Of a stretch of 10,209 nt of DNA, positions 2,497 to 10,209 are shown in pieces. This DNA comes from an uncultured bacterium. GTDB lineage: Bacteria; Cyanobacteriota; Vampirovibrionia; Gastranaerophilales; Gastranaerophilaceae. Position 1 is the first letter of the stretch. Every line of letters begins with the position of its first letter. The position numbers were made by a program, and so were the translations under genes. The DNA lies in contig CANAXK010000044.1 of assembly GCA_947365485.1 (NCBI GenBank), forward strand, positions 1 to 10,209. Reading direction: 5' to 3'. The notes beneath the pieces were generated by a model, which had not been told where the DNA came from, made no database searches, and worked only from the letters and a program-made list of their open reading frames with translations.

Positions 2497-3219
2497 CTAG
2501 CCCCAATACTTATCCAGCCACTTCGTCGGCTTAATATACCGGAACCCGAGCTTCCCGAAATAACCCTTGTAAGCCTCTTCCGGAGTCGGCTTCCCGTGGA
2601 AAATAAGAATCTTTGCTTCTTCCGGGTCGCGCGGAACCTTGAACCAGCAGAGCGGAAATTTGTGCAGACACTGACGCTTGAAGCTTACTACCCAGTCTTT
2701 CGGCCAGTACTTTAACAAGCCCTTTCTGTCCATTTCATAAGAAAGGAATGCCTGCTCGTTCTTGTATCTCTTGCGGATGTCTTTACCTTCCTGATAGAAA
2801 TGCTCGATGATTTCTGGATGCTTGCCAACCTCAAAACGGAACACGGAAGAATTTCCGATAATGTCATGCGGAAAATCGTAGTCTTTTGAGATTAAGAAGC
2901 TGCCCTCAACCTCAAAAAACGGGTCAAGCGAGCCTCTGATAATTATGTCCAAATCAAGAAACAGAGCCGTACCTTTTAAATCAGAAAGCGGCGACGCAAA
3001 GAGCCCGAGCTTCTTCCACATTCTATCCGGAATACCCTCGTCATCCAGCTCCGGAAGCGGCCTGATTTCAACACCCTCGTCAATTCCTTCGGCGTTATCA
3101 GTGAAACACACGAATCTGTGAGGCAGAGTTAAGTTCTTCTCAACCATCTTGTAGAGCTTGTTTACGTATTCTGCTCCAAACTTTGTACCCCATTTAATAC
3201 AAATAACATTTCTTTCCAT
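2497..3219 (-). CDS. GT-A-type glycosyltransferase-like protein
   Basis: About 240 residues with no signal peptide or membrane span, so probably cytosolic. Three features suggest a GT-A nucleotide-sugar transferase related to family GT8. The N-terminus is a beta strand, V-I-C-I-K-W-G-T-K, followed by a Y-V-N-K-L-Y helix. A D-L-D motif sits in F-L-D-L-D-I-I-I-R-G-S-L-D-P-F (about residues 89-101 of the product), the usual metal and sugar-nucleotide site. Near the C-terminus, I-F-H-G-K-P fits the conserved HxGxxKP-like end of GT8 enzymes. Donor and acceptor are unknown. Two in-frame ATGs compete: 3225 and 3219. GGGAG lies only 3 bases before the first but 9 before the second, so 3219 is preferred. 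The gene follows the lipoprotein gene after a short gap without a terminator and may be the last gene of that operon. Its codons look more GC-rich than those of its neighbours. Confidence 0.75.
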   Translation of the reverse strand: MERNVICIKWGTKFGAEYVNKLYKMVEKNLTLPHRFVCFTDNAEGIDEGVEIRPLPELDDEGIPDRMWKKLGLFASPLSDLKGTALFLDLDIIIRGSLDPFFEVEGSFLISKDYDFPHDIIGNSSVFRFEVGKHPEIIEHFYQEGKDIRKRYKNEQAFLSYEMDRKGLLKYWPKDWVVSFKRQCLHKFPLCWFKVPRDPEEAKILIFHGKPTPEEAYKGYFGKLGFRYIKPTKWLDKYWG

Positions 3220-3260
3220 AATCATATACTCCCTGTGCAGTCAAGAATACCATAAATAAC

Positions 3261-4274
3261 CTAATTAAACAATTCTTTGTTAAGTTTATCCGCTCTTTTT
3301 TTGTAATCCTTGCCAGCAAACACAACCTCCGAGCGCTCTATCGCCTCCAAAAACGCCTCACCGCCCTTGATTTCGCAGTCTTTTCTTGCAGGAACAATCA
3401 AGCCGGTTTTTGCAAAATATTCAATGCTCTCTTTCGTAGAAAGATAATCAACAAGCTTAAACGCAGCCTCTTTGTGCTTAGAATCCTTAGAAACCGCCCA
3501 GCCAGAAGCGTCAGCAGGGACTTTGCCCGGAAAATTCACAACCGACCACGGAAATTCTGCGCTCTCTTCGATTTTCGGATACATCCATCTGCCTGAAAGA
3601 TAGAAAGCAATCTTCCCGTCCAGAAACATCTGCGCAAGAGTCTGACTCCCAACAGCAGCAGGAGTCGGCGCGTATTTGCCTTCAAGTTTTTTATAAAAAT
3701 CTACGCCCTTATCAATTGAGCCAAGAGTAAGCACATAAGGCATTGCCCAGAAAATATCTCTCTCGTAGCTGACTCCAAAAACATCTTTTGTGGTTGAACT
3801 CTGAACAAGTTTATAAAACTCGTCCATTGTCCAGTCTTTATCAGGATTTCCTTCTACCAGATTCTTGTTATAAAAAAACACCAGATTGGAAATATCTCTT
3901 GGAACAGCGTAGAGTTTTCCCTCATAGCTTAGAGCCTCAAGGCCTTGGGGATAGAAGTCTGATTTATCAAGCTCTTTGATTTCCTCGAGTTTTGAGGCAT
4001 AAACAGGGAGATAGATATTGTTTACAAAAATCACGTCAGGTGCCTGATTTGAGGCAAAGAGCAGGTGGATTTTCTGGAAATAATTTTGAGGGATGTGCAT
4101 AAAATTCACCCTGATTTTAGGATTATCGTTCTCAAAATCAGAAATCAAATGTTCCAGAATCTTTGTCTCTGTAATCGAGCCCCATGAAGAAAATGTCACT
4201 TCTTCTACATTGCTTTTAGTACAAGCGCATAGCATAAACGGTATCAGAAAAAGGATTAGCAGTTTTCTTAGCAT
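3261..4274 (-). CDS. Extracellular solute-binding lipoprotein, family 1 (sugar-type ABC substrate-binding protein)
   Basis: 337 residues. The N-terminus has a type II signal: M-L-R-K, a hydrophobic stretch, and lipobox L-C-A-C with C18 as the likely lipidated residue, so the mature protein is membrane-anchored outside the cytoplasm. The body follows the MalE/UgpB-like family 1 fold: an early F-S-S-W-G segment, A-P-D-V-I-F-V-N near the first domain crossover, the A-V-P-R-D...F-F-Y-N-K-N-L segment, W-T-M-D-E-F, a central S-G-R-W-M, and the late A-A-F-K-L-V-D-Y-L...V-P-A-R region. The family normally delivers sugars or similar solutes to an ABC permease, but no permease or ATPase gene is next to it. 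Its ATG overlaps the end of the large membrane-protein gene by 7 bases, indicating translational coupling. It may therefore act as a ligand sensor rather than a transport component; that is inference. Confidence 0.88.
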   Translation of the reverse strand: MLRKLLILFLIPFMLCACTKSNVEEVTFSSWGSITETKILEHLISDFENDNPKIRVNFMHIPQNYFQKIHLLFASNQAPDVIFVNNIYLPVYASKLEEIKELDKSDFYPQGLEALSYEGKLYAVPRDISNLVFFYNKNLVEGNPDKDWTMDEFYKLVQSSTTKDVFGVSYERDIFWAMPYVLTLGSIDKGVDFYKKLEGKYAPTPAAVGSQTLAQMFLDGKIAFYLSGRWMYPKIEESAEFPWSVVNFPGKVPADASGWAVSKDSKHKEAAFKLVDYLSTKESIEYFAKTGLIVPARKDCEIKGGEAFLEAIERSEVVFAGKDYKKRADKLNKELFN

Positions 4275-6871
4275 AAATCCATTACAAACTCCAGATTATC
4301 GTCTTTTGCGTTCATAATAAACTTATGCACCCCGAGTCTCACAATATACCTTGTTGTCCCGTCAGCCATTTTTTCGCTTGCTCTTGCCTGCATCTGTTCG
4401 GATTTGAGGCTCACATAGTGTTTAATCTTAAATGTCCTGTCGCCCGCATACCCGATAACAGTGTACCCGTTAGAGTTTTTGCCCAAACAGCAGCCCATAT
4501 TGCCGTCAAAGTCTGAGCGGCAAAGAATTTCGTACTCTTCACCTCTTACAGTACAGAACTCTTTTTCCCCTGATTGTGCGTTCTGTTGAGGTTCAGGCTT
4601 TTCTTTCTCTCTTTTAATCTCGCGCTCAGCACGTTTTTCCTGAATAAATTGCAGAAGCTTATCCGAGTCATAATCGCGTTTTGGCTCTAGTTTCTTTGGA
4701 GCCGGTTTTTTAAGTTTTGGAAGCTCTTCCATCATATCATTGAGCTCTTTATCAAGTTCCTGCGCGGTTTTGTTATCCAAATCAACAAAGCTGTTATCGT
4801 AAAGTGATTCAAAGTCGTCGTATTCGCGCTGGGTTTGAACTTCCAACTCATCGTCGTTAACAATTTGAATATCGCTAAACTGGTCAAATTCTTTTTGCAT
4901 GTCAGAAATACTCGGAGCGTTCGAGTCATCAAACTCATTAATTATCTCAAAATCCCGTGACCCGTCATCAAACGGCTTAAATGTAACATTGGAAATATTC
5001 TTAAGCAGTGCTTCTTCGTCAACTAACACAGGCTCCGGCTCTTTTGTTTCGTATTTTTCAGGGTTCTTAAGCACATCCCTTAAATCAGGCAGCCCTGAAA
5101 TTGTCATCTTCTGAACATCATACCCTGATTCAGAGTACTCAACAGCATCAGAAGGCCTTGTTTTGTAAGCATCCTTGTTATTGATTTCAAGCGAAAGGTC
5201 AGGTAGTTTGTCTTTGAGTGACAGAATACTAACGTCATAGCCTTCACTAAAATAAACGACTTCCGGCTTAGCATCTGATTCGATTTTTCTTCCCCCCTGT
5301 TTCTTGAGCGCCTCAGACAAATCAGGAAGCATGTCTTTTACGTTCAAAGTAAGCAGCTCGGAAGTCTTATGCGGCTTGTCTTTTGATTTTGCTATCTCTT
5401 CTTCTCTGCGCTTGATAATATCAGGGTCAGTCTTCAAGTCCGTAATAAAGTCGCTGTCAATCTCAACAGAAATCAGCTTGTTCAAAGCCTCGATATCAGA
5501 ACCCGTAAACACAATGTTCTGGTCAATGCTGTATGTTGTAACCAAATCCTCAAGAACCTCTGCAGGAGTACGTTTTTTCTCAACCACAGGAACAGTAATA
5601 TAATCCGTAATATTCTTGAGCGTATCGTCGTTAATCTCTGAATTAAGGAGCTGGTTAATCTTATCAACATCGTCTTTAGAGAATTTCAACTCCTCGTCTG
5701 AAATATATTTTTCATAAAGCTCCTCATCATAGCCAGAGCCTTCTTCGACTTCCTCCTCGTCTTCCTCATCAAAAGAGAATCCTGCAAGAAAGTCCTCCAA
5801 ATCCGCGTTGAAATCCTCGTCCGGTGCTTCTTCCGCAGCCGGAGTTGGTGACTGTTTTGTTTCCTGAAAAATTTCGTCCAAATCTACAATTGTAGGAGCT
5901 TCTTCAACCTCAGGCTCCTCAATTTCCGGAGCTGGTTGAGGCGCAACGTTTACCGGCATCTTATCCGGCTTGGTGTATTTTTTATCAAGGCTCTTCACGG
6001 CCTTGTTAATCTTTGTTATGCTTTGTTTTTTAGCAGCCTCTTTTTTCTTCTTCTTTTTGGCATCTTCCTCGTCATCAAAATCAAACTCTGTCTGCTCGCC
6101 AATAATCTCACGCATAGTGCTTTTTGCTCTCACAACAAGAAGCACCATCAAAATGGCAATCAGTATAAGCCCGCCAATAAACGTCCAAGAACTCGGTCCC
6201 TGCTCCTCTTCAGGATTCTGTATCGGGGCGTTATCCTCATCAGGGCTGGAAGGCTCTTCATAAGAGTTGTTTCTTTCAGGCTCCGAAGTTTGAGGACTCT
6301 GTTCAAACTGTTTAACGCTTTGGCGTATATCAACAGGGTTAATTTGGTCGACTCCGCTTCTTGAGCGAATCGCTTCTTGTCTTACCTCAGGTTGTGGTGT
6401 ATATTTTTCCTCAACACGCGGTTCGTCAAATTTAGGCTGCTCCGGCTGTTGGGCAGTTGTTTCAATAAGTCCCTGGTGCTGTTCAGGAATGAAGAGCCCC
6501 TTAGAAGCATTCAAAACAGTATTTGGGGAGGTTTTTATTGTAATCTTGGTATAGCCTTTACTGCTTGTTGTATAAGGCATGGTTGAGACGTTTACGCTAT
6601 CAATGTTTGAGACGAGTCTTGCTGCGCCCTTCATCTGGCTGTTGGTTTCCGGAAGCATGATGACGTAAGTGTTTGCATCTTTTCTCACAGCAGATATACT
6701 GTTTGCATAATCCTGTTTTGTGAGCACAGTCAAATTAACAGCACCGTTTTCCGTGTTGTCAAGTTGTAATGCCATAAGGCTGTTTTTATAATTCTCTGCT
6801 CCAAAAGCTCCAACTACTGTTACTACTGAAGCCAGTACCAATGCAATCGTCTTCTTTTTAAACTGCTTCAT
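4268..6871 (-). CDS. Large single-pass membrane protein with FimV/HubP-like plan; function unknown
   Basis: 867 residues, no family recognised with certainty. In order: signal peptide (M-K-Q-F-K-K-K, hydrophobic core, probable cut after A-F-G-A at 25); a small beta-rich external domain at about 32-131 that could be AMIN-like; a Pro/Gln/Glu-rich linker; one membrane helix at about 230-247 followed by Arg/Lys; a six-Lys run at 272-277; then a long, very acidic cytoplasmic region. That region has two repeat families: a pair of 26-residue units (396-421 and 454-479) and three L-P-D-L units (leucines at 515, 556, 594). A compact domain closes the protein (about 770-867) and holds all five cysteines. 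The start is the ATG at 6871; an in-frame TTG at 6898 would spoil the signal peptide. This signal-periplasm-TM-acidic plan resembles FimV/HubP polar organisers, and the chemosensory neighbours fit. LysM and TPR were not identified, so this is likeness of design, not proven homology. Confidence 0.85.
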   Translation of the reverse strand: MKQFKKKTIALVLASVVTVVGAFGAENYKNSLMALQLDNTENGAVNLTVLTKQDYANSISAVRKDANTYVIMLPETNSQMKGAARLVSNIDSVNVSTMPYTTSSKGYTKITIKTSPNTVLNASKGLFIPEQHQGLIETTAQQPEQPKFDEPRVEEKYTPQPEVRQEAIRSRSGVDQINPVDIRQSVKQFEQSPQTSEPERNNSYEEPSSPDEDNAPIQNPEEEQGPSSWTFIGGLILIAILMVLLVVRAKSTMREIIGEQTEFDFDDEEDAKKKKKKEAAKKQSITKINKAVKSLDKKYTKPDKMPVNVAPQPAPEIEEPEVEEAPTIVDLDEIFQETKQSPTPAAEEAPDEDFNADLEDFLAGFSFDEEDEEEVEEGSGYDEELYEKYISDEELKFSKDDVDKINQLLNSEINDDTLKNITDYITVPVVEKKRTPAEVLEDLVTTYSIDQNIVFTGSDIEALNKLISVEIDSDFITDLKTDPDIIKRREEEIAKSKDKPHKTSELLTLNVKDMLPDLSEALKKQGGRKIESDAKPEVVYFSEGYDVSILSLKDKLPDLSLEINNKDAYKTRPSDAVEYSESGYDVQKMTISGLPDLRDVLKNPEKYETKEPEPVLVDEEALLKNISNVTFKPFDDGSRDFEIINEFDDSNAPSISDMQKEFDQFSDIQIVNDDELEVQTQREYDDFESLYDNSFVDLDNKTAQELDKELNDMMEELPKLKKPAPKKLEPKRDYDSDKLLQFIQEKRAEREIKREKEKPEPQQNAQSGEKEFCTVRGEEYEILCRSDFDGNMGCCLGKNSNGYTVIGYAGDRTFKIKHYVSLKSEQMQARASEKMADGTTRYIVRLGVHKFIMNAKDDNLEFVMDLC
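5060..5368 (-). repeat. Three L-P-D-L units coded inside the large membrane protein
   Basis: Three successive segments of the acidic region share a hydrophobic-K-D-x-L-P-D-L-S core, spaced 41 and 38 residues apart. The second and third are also preceded by S-E-(S)-G-Y-D-V, making a longer unit. The units look like short linear motifs that dock partners, as in the acidic repeats of polar scaffold proteins. The similarity is seen directly; the docking role is inference. Confidence 0.65.
5435..5512 (-). repeat. Second copy of a 26-residue duplicated unit in the large membrane protein
   Basis: Residues 454-479 of the 867-residue product. Aligned without gaps to residues 396-421 (bases 5609-5686), the units share F, D, N, L, E, I and D at matching positions, and most other positions are conservative (I/L/V, D/E/N, S/T). 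The pattern is F-[ST]-x-x-D-[VI]-x-x-[IL]-N-x-L-[LI]-x-x-E-I-x-x-D. This suggests an old internal duplication of a small helical element. Confidence 0.6.
5609..5686 (-). repeat. First copy of the 26-residue duplicated unit in the large membrane protein
   Basis: Residues 396-421 of the product, just after the most acidic stretch (about 366-395). It pairs with the unit at 5435-5512; the two copies begin 58 residues apart, and the intervening sequence is not obviously repeated. Confidence 0.6.
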
Positions 6872-6936: not shown

Positions 6937-7935
6937 TTACATGTCAGTAATAATGATTCTTTTGTCCGACGAAATTTTCTCAATATTAAGAATTGTGTAC
7001 AATGTCTCGTTATAAATAAACTCGTTTGAGAAATATCCTTCGCCCACATCCAGCAGGCTGTCTTCCTGATAATCAAAAAGCTCGTTGATTTTATCTATCA
7101 AAAGCGCAAGTTTGAGTTCGTTGCACTTGATAATAATAACCGGTTTCTTATCAGAAGTCTCTTTTTCAGGAAGGCTAAGGAATTTTTTCATGTTGATTAC
7201 AGTAATGTAATCCCCTCTCAGGTTCATAATCCCCTCAATAAAATCAGGGGTTCCCGGAACATTCGTAATAGATGTGTCTTTCAAAACCTCTTTCACATAG
7301 TCAAGCGCAATACAATAGTGGTCGCTGTTGAGGTTAAAAGAAATATACTTGTTCTTGACATGCAGTTCCCCAGATGCCAGCTTCAAATTTGATTTAGCAG
7401 CAATATCAGAAGTCCTCTTTGCCATTATTGCTTTTGAGTTTTCATCCTGTGGGAAGAGTGTCGGAATATCGACTTCTGCCCAGGTATTGTGCTGTTTCAG
7501 GAGGTTTTCTATTGCATAAATATTAATGATGAATATTGTTTCCTGATTGAACTTGTAGATGGAATCAATAATCATTTTGTTATCAACAAACGGAATCGCG
7601 TCCACAAGGGCAGATTCAAAAGGAATAATCCCGATAATTTTGTCGGTTATAATCCCGAAGATAATCTCGTCTGTTTTTACAATCAGAAGTTCGTTATTCG
7701 TGCTGTAAGGCGGTACTTCTATATTCAGAAAGAATCTCACATCAAGCACATTGATAACAAAATTGTTATACTTCAAAAGCCCGACAATATTGTTAGGTAG
7801 TTTCTGCGGATAATCCAGAGCCGGCAGCTTCATAATCTCAAGCACGTTATCAGAATTAATCGCGTACTTGTTTTCACCTATTCTAAAATACAGGTGTGTG
7901 TTCTTCTTTTGTTCAAGATAATTATTGCTGCTCAT
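6937..7935 (-). CDS. Tandem CheW-domain protein (two CheW domains)
   Basis: 332 residues, cytosolic, no other domain. Two CheW folds lie in tandem at about residues 12-148 and 193-325. CheW couples chemoreceptors to the CheA kinase. The second domain carries the classic G-I-M-N-L-R-G-D-Y-I-T-V-I-N signature at 235-248, including the R240 position that touches receptors in E. coli CheW. The first domain aligns well but has G-L-L-K-Y-N-N-F-V-I-N-V-L-D at 52-65, so N-L-R-G is replaced by K-Y-N-N and its binding surface may differ. A linker of about 45 residues joins them. The ATG lies inside the end of the upstream diguanylate cyclase gene (14-base overlap), so the two are probably co-translated. 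Double CheW proteins are less common than single ones and might bridge two partners in an array. Confidence 0.93.
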   Translation of the reverse strand: MSSNNYLEQKKNTHLYFRIGENKYAINSDNVLEIMKLPALDYPQKLPNNIVGLLKYNNFVINVLDVRFFLNIEVPPYSTNNELLIVKTDEIIFGIITDKIIGIIPFESALVDAIPFVDNKMIIDSIYKFNQETIFIINIYAIENLLKQHNTWAEVDIPTLFPQDENSKAIMAKRTSDIAAKSNLKLASGELHVKNKYISFNLNSDHYCIALDYVKEVLKDTSITNVPGTPDFIEGIMNLRGDYITVINMKKFLSLPEKETSDKKPVIIIKCNELKLALLIDKINELFDYQEDSLLDVGEGYFSNEFIYNETLYTILNIEKISSDKRIIITDM

Positions 7936-9379
7936 GTAATACTACCCTGTTTCTTCCGCTCTCTTTTGCCTTATACAAAGCCTCATCAGCAGATTTGAGA
8001 ATATCTGCCGCTGTATTAAATTCCTGAAAATTCATTGTAAGCCCGATACTTGCCGTAACCTTTGTCTTGACTCCGTTGTAGTCAAAATCGTATTCCTCAA
8101 TCATTCTTCTTAGACGCTGCACTGGAATAACAGCACCTTCAATGTTTGTCTCCGGCATAATCATAACCAGCTCTTCACCGCCGTATCGATAAAGAAGGTC
8201 GGTTTTTCTAAATGCTGTCTTCATCAAACCTGCAACCGTCTTGAGCACATAGTCTCCGTACTGGTGGCCGAAAGTATCGTTTACCTTCTTAAAGAAGTCA
8301 ATATCAAGAATCGCAAGGCTGAAATCAGACGGGTGGCGCTTAGAACGGTTGTGCTCCTGCTCCAAGCTGATTTCAAACTGGCGCCTGTTATATAATCCTG
8401 TAAGTCCGTCAAGAACTGACATGAACTCTTTTTCTGTATACTGGTACTTCATTTTGAATATGGAGAGCAGCTCTCCAATCATGATATCAAAATACCTGAA
8501 TGAAGCGTAGTCCATCTCCTGCCTTGTGTAGAAGCAGATTCCGCCAATAAGTTTTTTATCAAACACAAGCGGGATAATAATTTTTGACTTCAAATCCGTA
8601 AACTGATAATCAATTTCCTTGCCTAGAAGCATTCTTACAACTTCAAACTTGGAGTCCTTAACGCTTTTGAGCTCTTCCATTTTTCTGAAGAAGTCGAACC
8701 GGATATCAGAAAGCACGTTTTTCGAAAGGTTTCTTCCAAGCGTATCCAGATAAAGAATATTTTCTGCGAAATCGTCAGGTGAAGCGAAGAAAATCCCCGC
8801 AACGCTATATTCTACAAACGAGCTAAGCAGCGAGAAGAGTTTTTCCACAAGGATTCTTTCATAGTTCAAAAAGTCGCTCAGATTTCTAAACTCGTTAGCG
8901 AAAACAGACTTCAAGAGCAGGTCATTAAGAATTGTATTGAGTCTTGTCTGCGCAGAGTTATCCGTTTGAGCCTTCATTGTAAGCGCTGCCTTATACTCAT
9001 CGCTCACAGGATATCGTCTCAATGTTGCGTTAATATTTCTGACAAGTTCGTTAACGTCAATGGATTTTGACAAAAACAGCTGTGCGCCGGCTTTTTTACC
9101 CCAGAAGCTGTCAATTTTCTTGTCAAGCACTGTAAGCAGGACAACCGGAATCTTTTTTGTTTCGTCAACATTCTTAATCATTCTGCATAGTTGATAACCG
9201 TCGATTACTGGCATCATAATATCCGAAACCACAAGATCCGGAACGTACTCGAATATTTTTTTGTACGCTTCTGCCCCGTTTGTCGCGGTTTCTACTTCAA
9301 ACCCGTTAGATGTAAGCCCCTCTTTTAGGAATTTTAACTGGGTATCGCTATCTTCTACTAATAAAATTTTTGCTGCCAT
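7922..9379 (-). CDS. Response regulator diguanylate cyclase (REC - GAF-like region - GGDEF)
   Basis: 485 residues. The REC domain (about 3-122) has the acidic pocket at E9/D10, phosphoacceptor D53 in V-S-D-I-M-M-P, T83 and K105, so it should accept phosphate from a CheA-type kinase. A middle region (about 160-310), with helices and a strand-rich end, resembles a GAF-type sensor, though not clearly. The GGDEF domain (about 318-482) starts with D-G-L-T-G-L-Y-N-R-R, has metal ligand D360 in L-D-I-D-F-F-K, and an active-site variant G-G-E-E-L at 400-404, normally still active. An RxxD inhibitory site (R391, D394) sits exactly five residues before it, predicting product feedback. It should make c-di-GMP in response to phosphorylation, as WspR and PleD do. 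The ATG at 9379 faces the divergent chemoreceptor across 83 bases. The 3' end overlaps the CheW gene. Confidence 0.95.
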   Translation of the reverse strand: MAAKILLVEDSDTQLKFLKEGLTSNGFEVETATNGAEAYKKIFEYVPDLVVSDIMMPVIDGYQLCRMIKNVDETKKIPVVLLTVLDKKIDSFWGKKAGAQLFLSKSIDVNELVRNINATLRRYPVSDEYKAALTMKAQTDNSAQTRLNTILNDLLLKSVFANEFRNLSDFLNYERILVEKLFSLLSSFVEYSVAGIFFASPDDFAENILYLDTLGRNLSKNVLSDIRFDFFRKMEELKSVKDSKFEVVRMLLGKEIDYQFTDLKSKIIIPLVFDKKLIGGICFYTRQEMDYASFRYFDIMIGELLSIFKMKYQYTEKEFMSVLDGLTGLYNRRQFEISLEQEHNRSKRHPSDFSLAILDIDFFKKVNDTFGHQYGDYVLKTVAGLMKTAFRKTDLLYRYGGEELVMIMPETNIEGAVIPVQRLRRMIEEYDFDYNGVKTKVTASIGLTMNFQEFNTAADILKSADEALYKAKESGRNRVVLHEQQ

Positions 9380-9462: not shown

Positions 9463-10209
9463 GTGCTTAACGATTGGAATTTTGGATTGAAACAGAAGTT
9501 TAATATTAAATGCCTTATTGACCTGGCAGCCTTTGTAATAACATGTATGATTTTCTTGTTCTTTGCAAGAATGAATCAGGTAGCACCTTATGACGCGTTT
9601 GTATTTTTAACGATTGTGCTTGCGCTTAACCTTGCTGTACACTTCATTACAAAGCAGTGGATTGTAAAAGCAATCAGAAAATCCATGACAACCCAGTCTG
9701 ACTCGCTTGCTGACACAACCGGTGAAATCATGCTCTCAATTGATTCCCAGAAAAAAGTGTTTGAAAATCTTACAACAAACACCAAGAGCATCTCATCTCT
9801 TATCGAAAAGCTCAAAAGTCTGTCAGAAGAATCTGTTACAACTTCCAAAAACACCGAAAAGCAGGTTAACCAGTCAATCAACCTTTCTGAAAGAGAGCAT
9901 GAAGCAATTTCTTCCAACGCAGATAAAATGTTAGTTTTGAGACAAAAAATTCAGATGATTGCAGAGCTTATCCTTGAACTTTCAGAGCACTCACAGCAAA
10001 TCGGAAATTCAATCAGTGTGGTAGACGACATTGCAGAGCAGACAAACATGCTTGCGCTTAACGCAGCGGTTGAAGCAGCAAGAGCAGGGGAGCATGGTAA
10101 GGGTTTTGCTGTTGTTGCGGGTGAAATCAGAAAGCTTGCGGATGAATCAAAGCAGGCAATCACAAAGATTACATCGCTCACAAGCAACATTCAATACACC
10201 ACAAACTCC
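9463..10209 (+). CDS. Methyl-accepting chemotaxis protein with minimal external domain (3' end outside window)
   Basis: The start is GTG at 9463, with AGGAG 7 bases upstream; 249 residues are visible and the frame is open to the end of the window. Two membrane helices at about residues 17-35 and 43-62 are separated by only about seven residues, so there is no periplasmic ligand domain. A coiled-coil-rich stretch follows, with many Q, S, T and E residues, then the highly conserved receptor hairpin tip at about 190-229: [28 protein letters not shown], and E-I-R-K-L-A. This is the part that binds CheW and CheA. The second half of the hairpin is outside the window. No clear HAMP domain is seen. 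The gene diverges from the REC-GGDEF/CheW operon, which points to one signalling system. The receptor probably senses a membrane, cytoplasmic or protein-partner signal. Confidence 0.95.

Follow-up and report, generated by a model that had tools for sequence, protein, structure and literature searches.

A Gastranaerophilales protein family with an AMIN-like modelled outer domain and an apparently tandem FliO-type domain, often encoded next to a solute-binding lipoprotein

The window analysed here is a stretch of 10,209 nucleotides of contig CANAXK010000044.1, from an uncultured gut relative of the cyanobacteria in the Gastranaerophilaceae. Behind genes of chemotaxis type it encodes a protein of 867 residues, termed X in the following, and the locus raises the question of what kind of protein X is and which of its neighbours it belongs to. 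The genes concerned are:

3261..4274, minus strand: solute-binding protein (SBP_bac_8/1) with a lipobox-like LCAC, downstream of X
4268..6871, minus strand: X, 867 residues, ATG at 6871, stop codon at 4268-4270
6937-7935, minus strand: two-domain CheW protein (CheW2), upstream of X on the same strand
7922-9379, minus strand: REC-GGDEF protein, upstream of X on the same strand
9463..10209, plus strand: MCP signalling protein, running the opposite way and cut by the window end

Read in frame, the plus strand across 4268-6871 contains many stops. A TTG located 27 bases upstream of the ATG would extend X to 876 residues; the relatives in the protein alignment begin at the position of the ATG, not of the TTG. 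The X gene and the solute-binding gene share 7 bases (ATGCTAA). The first-pass annotation had described X as following the REC-GGDEF and double-CheW genes on one strand, and this is borne out, all three being on the minus strand. In longer relatives the MCP gene is followed by a CheA of about 980-1035 residues, for which Hpt, CheW and REC domains were found in the one relative scanned.

The architecture of X, in window coordinates, is as follows:

6800..6871, minus strand: putative N-terminal signal segment, residues 1-24 (hydropathy and conservation)
6476..6790, minus strand: AMIN-like ectodomain, residues 28-132
6101..6190, minus strand: single transmembrane helix, residues 228-257 (hydropathy and AlphaFold2 model)
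4562..6001, minus strand: acidic cytoplasmic tail, residues 291-770, mostly of low pLDDT
5603..5689, minus strand: helical repeat unit 1, residues 395-423
5429..5515, minus strand: helical repeat unit 2, residues 453-481
5030..5359, minus strand: three LPDL repeat units, residues 505-541, 542-580 and 581-614
4271..4564, minus strand: all-beta domain at the C-terminus, residues 770-867, interpreted as a FliO-type core in tandem

Apart from the N-terminal segment, hydropathy indicates one strong helix at about residues 229-250. The AlphaFold2 model comprises a beta N-domain (31-126), the helix (228-257) and a nine-strand C-domain (772-865), with a mean pLDDT of 59.3 and a pTM of 0.24; the two domains reach about 70-85 and the tail is mostly of low confidence. 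Aspartate and glutamate account for 26% of residues 291-770, which carry a net charge of -63. The LPDL motifs of the three units are located at 515, 556 and 594, and the helical units begin at 395 and 453. These repeats exceed chance, as four pairwise profile comparisons gave 92.8-97.2 and each was matched by 0 of 100 shuffles. Hydropathy, model and shuffles thus confirm the layout first proposed for the product, namely a signal segment, a small outer domain, one membrane helix, an acidic repeat-bearing cytoplasmic part and a C-terminal domain.

The EIDALL motif of FliM was the basis for considering the helical repeats as CheY-docking peptides. A regular expression for the FliM-type motif in these repeats matches 19 of the 29 X members, which was striking until a FliM-derived score matrix was applied: its p of about 9e-4 per sequence window is expected by chance in 867 residues, and the docking reading was therefore rejected.

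Pfam and NCBIfam searches with the window protein named no family. Homologues were found in 39 of 57 genomes by single-sequence search and in 117 of 146 genomes of the order by profile search, its own genome counted in both. Two homologue searches at E <= 0.001 returned 295 and 494 proteins, sets that may overlap; the relatives named include metagenome genomes of Candidatus Gastranaerophilales and Melainabacteria, and the 120 homologues listed per search are without Pfam domain and functional name. Among the literature matches listed on Gastranaerophilales chemotaxis, Melainabacteria FliO and related topics, which were available as excerpts, no description of X was found. X represents an undescribed protein family. 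Across the order its tail measures between 67 and more than 700 residues. Strong acidity is seen in this genus, in the genus that comes next by score (L056-L058) and in family f6; in some other groups the tail is mildly acidic, and in many it is not acidic. Tails of 67-250 residues without acidic character occur elsewhere in the order, so that the long acidic tail noted at first holds for the window protein but not as a trait of the order. Some members (L070, L073) have no detectable N-domain. At three further loci (L059:6437-7981, L062:6243-7592 and L065:6763-8373) the N-domain and transmembrane segment are joined to another kind of C-terminal part, and the FliO-type domain is missing.

The Pfam FliO profile matches 17 of 36 C-domains from across the order at E <= 1 (best 2.6e-7), and the window protein by itself has no match to it. 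At E <= 0.1 the profile finds four of ten full-length relatives, two of them over the curated cut-off, and misses six. A profile of the C-domain compared with 16 local FliO proteins gave 94.5%, the maximum of 200 column shuffles being 4.6; the two FliO groups gave 80.5 against each other, and 113 control windows from 20 other protein families reached at most 3.8, some of these alignments consisting of two sequences only. Taken singly, both halves of the domain align to the FliO core (85.6 and 95.4), and the domain is accordingly read as two such cores in tandem; against each other the halves gave 7.5%, with shuffles up to 11.8, i.e. hardly any direct mutual recognition. A reverse search with the C-domain profile through ten genomes recovered X in nine. 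Its 19 non-X rows comprise ten FliO genes (E 4.5e-5 to 0.1) and nine rows outside that FliO set, including an unassigned one at 2.1e-4 and one that is NuoD-like by sequence. By sequence comparison and model, the C-domain thus apparently consists of two FliO-type beta units in succession, which provides the order-wide family with a first domain reading.

The modelled ectodomain aligns to AmiC, and the outer domain of X may have an AMIN-like fold by this model. At the sequence level the match to AMIN proteins is only marginal: Pfam AMIN matches 5 of 37 N-domains at E <= 1 (best 0.0018), comparison of the N-domain profile with a local AMIN profile gave 1.0%, and X is not among the AMIN matches of its own genome at E <= 10. 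Unlike AmiC and PilQ, X has no amidase or secretin part.

An AMIN-TM-FliO architecture has been reported for FliO, as in Campylobacter jejuni (excerpts of PMC12403147), and this FliO and X share one transmembrane helix, a small cytoplasmic beta domain and a periplasmic domain, putatively of AMIN type in X. X fits this plan, with the core apparently doubled and the tail very long. Like FliO (Pfam PF04347), it is predicted by model and hydropathy to have one transmembrane helix followed by a cytoplasmic beta-sheet core, and the FliO profile is reached through its relatives, the profile comparison and the reverse search. It differs from FliO in the apparently tandem core, in a tail of up to about 700 residues, in being constantly paired, in this group and several related ones, with a solute-binding lipoprotein, and in occurring on top of ordinary FliO genes. 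Its gene is also not part of a flagellar operon and has no fliP next to it; within the genus the two are at least 17 kb apart or on separate contigs. To the diversity of FliO that has recently become apparent, X adds an apparent tandem-core branch located away from fliP.

The lasting neighbour of X is the solute-binding lipoprotein gene, not the chemotaxis genes. It follows X in 33 of the 34 genus loci with visible downstream sequence (the exception being L010) and in 18 of 21 loci from other genera of the family and from families f6 and f7, the calls at L160 and L161 being made from their sequences; L048 and L052 are too short to judge. None of seven loci from f2-f4 has it, three of these being N-domain only. 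The gene order is constant and the genes overlap in many loci. The lipoprotein is nearest to sugar-binding proteins, and its family has numerous sugar-binding relatives among PDB structures. Its overlapping gene is the one by which a reading of X can be tested.

The AMIN-like modelled fold, the one membrane helix, the two FliO-type units and the overlapping lipoprotein gene are the computed support for the reading to which we incline, if tentatively: X may be a bitopic inner-membrane protein in which the AMIN-TM-FliO plan was enlarged in this lineage, a trans-envelope scaffold with FliO-type parts that is coupled to the lipoprotein. From these parts and the gene order we infer how it could work. 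The AMIN-like part would anchor X to a periplasmic partner, either peptidoglycan or the lipoprotein. The acidic tail would be a flexible linker carrying repeated docking motifs, and on the cytoplasmic side the FliO-type domain would hold a membrane machine or help in its assembly. The likeliest client would be an export apparatus of flagellar type or, for this genus, the chemosensory array.

The chemosensory operon is located directly upstream of X in about seven of ten genus genomes, CheW2 being adjacent in 27 of 38 and not in the other 11. In a first set of 34 genomes, reduced to 32 by leaving out G014 (no X) and G001 (no CheW), 21 have the adjacency, with gaps of 21 to about 330 bases, and 11 do not (G007, G010, G012, G013, G016, G025, G027, G029, G030, G031, G033; ten of these loci were read directly and G030 was judged from contig ends). 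All six genomes examined in addition have it (G127, G136, G139, G157, G164, G176). In G010 and G025 the pair of X and lipoprotein is found some kilobases past CheA, on the far side of the che cluster. G014 keeps the cluster and has no X by single-sequence search; an FlhB-like open reading frame, judged from its start, lies directly beside its CheA (L152:4110-5171). At the loci examined outside the genus, neither CheW2 within 600 bases nor REC-GGDEF within 1.8 kb was found upstream of X. Conservation of the cheW and GGDEF neighbourhood, which had been proposed as a check, therefore holds within the genus and not beyond it, where the chemosensory operon was rejected as a conserved context of X. 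Three CheW domains per genome were counted in 37 of 38 genus genomes, for which the loci read account by a single CheA and a single CheW2. A FliO-derived X might have left the flagellar operon and become a lipoprotein-linked trans-membrane adaptor that feeds or organises the only chemosensory pathway of the genus. In this way a secretion-gate assembly factor would have been turned to sensory use; we regard this as doubtful.

X had also been proposed as an organiser like FimV and HubP. According to excerpts of PMC12918733, these proteins are characterised by a LysM-like domain outside, a transmembrane region, an acidic cytoplasmic part and a C-terminal TPR domain. X is alike in size, in the ground plan of a periplasmic domain, one membrane span, a long acidic repeat-bearing cytoplasmic part and a C-terminal domain, and, in this genus, in its chemosensory and GGDEF context. 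The single transmembrane region is present by hydropathy and model, and the extensive acidic cytoplasmic domain is present in the window protein but not conserved order-wide. In contrast, the outer domain is modelled as AMIN-like instead of LysM-like (no LysM in Pfam scans of X and of 37 N-domains), and the C-terminus is an all-beta, nine-strand FliO-type model without a FimV or TPR match. NCBIfam contains FimV models; 0 of 29 X members match them. With two of the four features and not the other two, X may work like FimV/HubP but is not one of them; membership was rejected, while the alternative of an undescribed family with the same ground plan proved correct. X suggests that this ground plan can be built from other parts. 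Were X a polar hub in the FimV/HubP sense, it would recruit the chemosensory array and the REC-GGDEF enzyme to the pole via its acidic repeats. The shared plan and the frequent CheW2 adjacency agree with this, as do the acidic imperfect repeats of HubP (excerpts of PMC12918733) and the reported binding of a GGDEF domain to HubP (excerpts of PMC9061725). It is nevertheless unlikely, as X has no FimV/HubP domain, 11 of 38 genus genomes lack the adjacency, G014 has the cluster and no detected X, and outside the genus X often lacks the acidic tail and has no che gene as its immediate upstream neighbour.

We consider it equally improbable that X and the lipoprotein form a sensor pair, in which the lipoprotein would bind sugar and dock on the ectodomain, and the tail would signal to the CheW/CheA/REC-GGDEF pathway. 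The constant, often overlapping gene order and the similarity to sugar-binding proteins are consistent with such a pair, and the MCP of the cluster seems to be missing an outside sensor. However, X has no known signalling domain, the two genes persist where che genes are not adjacent, and both ligand and contact are putative.

FliP was found in 56 of 57 genomes and FliO in 55 of 57, mostly with two matches each. In the loci read, the second FliP has the shorter FliO as its immediate neighbour. The longer FliO lies less than 2 kb from the first FliP in G022, but in G015, G036 and G038 it is on a different contig and in G039 at a great distance. It is very unlikely that X is an extra FliO serving one of two export gates. 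Its FliO-type C-domain, the two FliP matches of most genomes, the published AMIN-TM-FliO architecture (excerpts of PMC12403147) and an N-domain-only relative beside FliO-FliP in G035 would fit, but most genomes have two ordinary FliO genes, one of them beside FliP at every second-gate locus read, and X differs by its separation from FliP, its doubled core and its long tail. Least likely of all is nutrient uptake, with the lipoprotein serving a distant ABC permease that X tethers or regulates: the sugar-binding PDB relatives and a sugar-permease-like open reading frame elsewhere in G015 (L100, judged from sequence) would agree, but a Pfam scan of 18 neighbour proteins found no ABC permease or ATPase, and we know of no uptake role for FliO-type domains.

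Two FliP genes with FliQ- and FliR-like neighbours are present in most related genomes searched (L095/L096, L097, L101/L102, L104/L105, L106/L107), and the sequence starts next to the second FliP set include none of FlhA or FlhB type. In G035 (family f3, L195:182-4146) the N-domain-only relative is oriented divergently beside FliO, FliP and a gene with a FliN/SpoA-like end, recognised by eye. Flagellin was found in 53 of 54 genomes and a PilT match over the cut-off in 38 of 38 genus genomes. Each genus genome has between 5 and 13 matches of flagellin type, some of which lie in open frames exceeding 1000 residues. EIDxLL is the CheY-docking motif of FliM. It is absent from the FliM N-terminus in all 15 genus proteins read (L175:3290-4270, L176-L185, L190, L170, L171 and L173 among the examples) and in both read from f7, and present in 9 of 9 from f2-f6.

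As read from the sequence, the cluster MCP (9463-10209 and its relatives) has two hydrophobic segments with next to nothing between them, and hence no evident outside sensor domain. A protein of 242 residues encoded at 2497-3225 is placed after the solute-binding gene in about a dozen genus loci, with 86-100% identity; it has no Pfam (E <= 0.2) or NCBIfam match and contains an FLDLDI stretch, which we take to suggest a glycosyltransferase.
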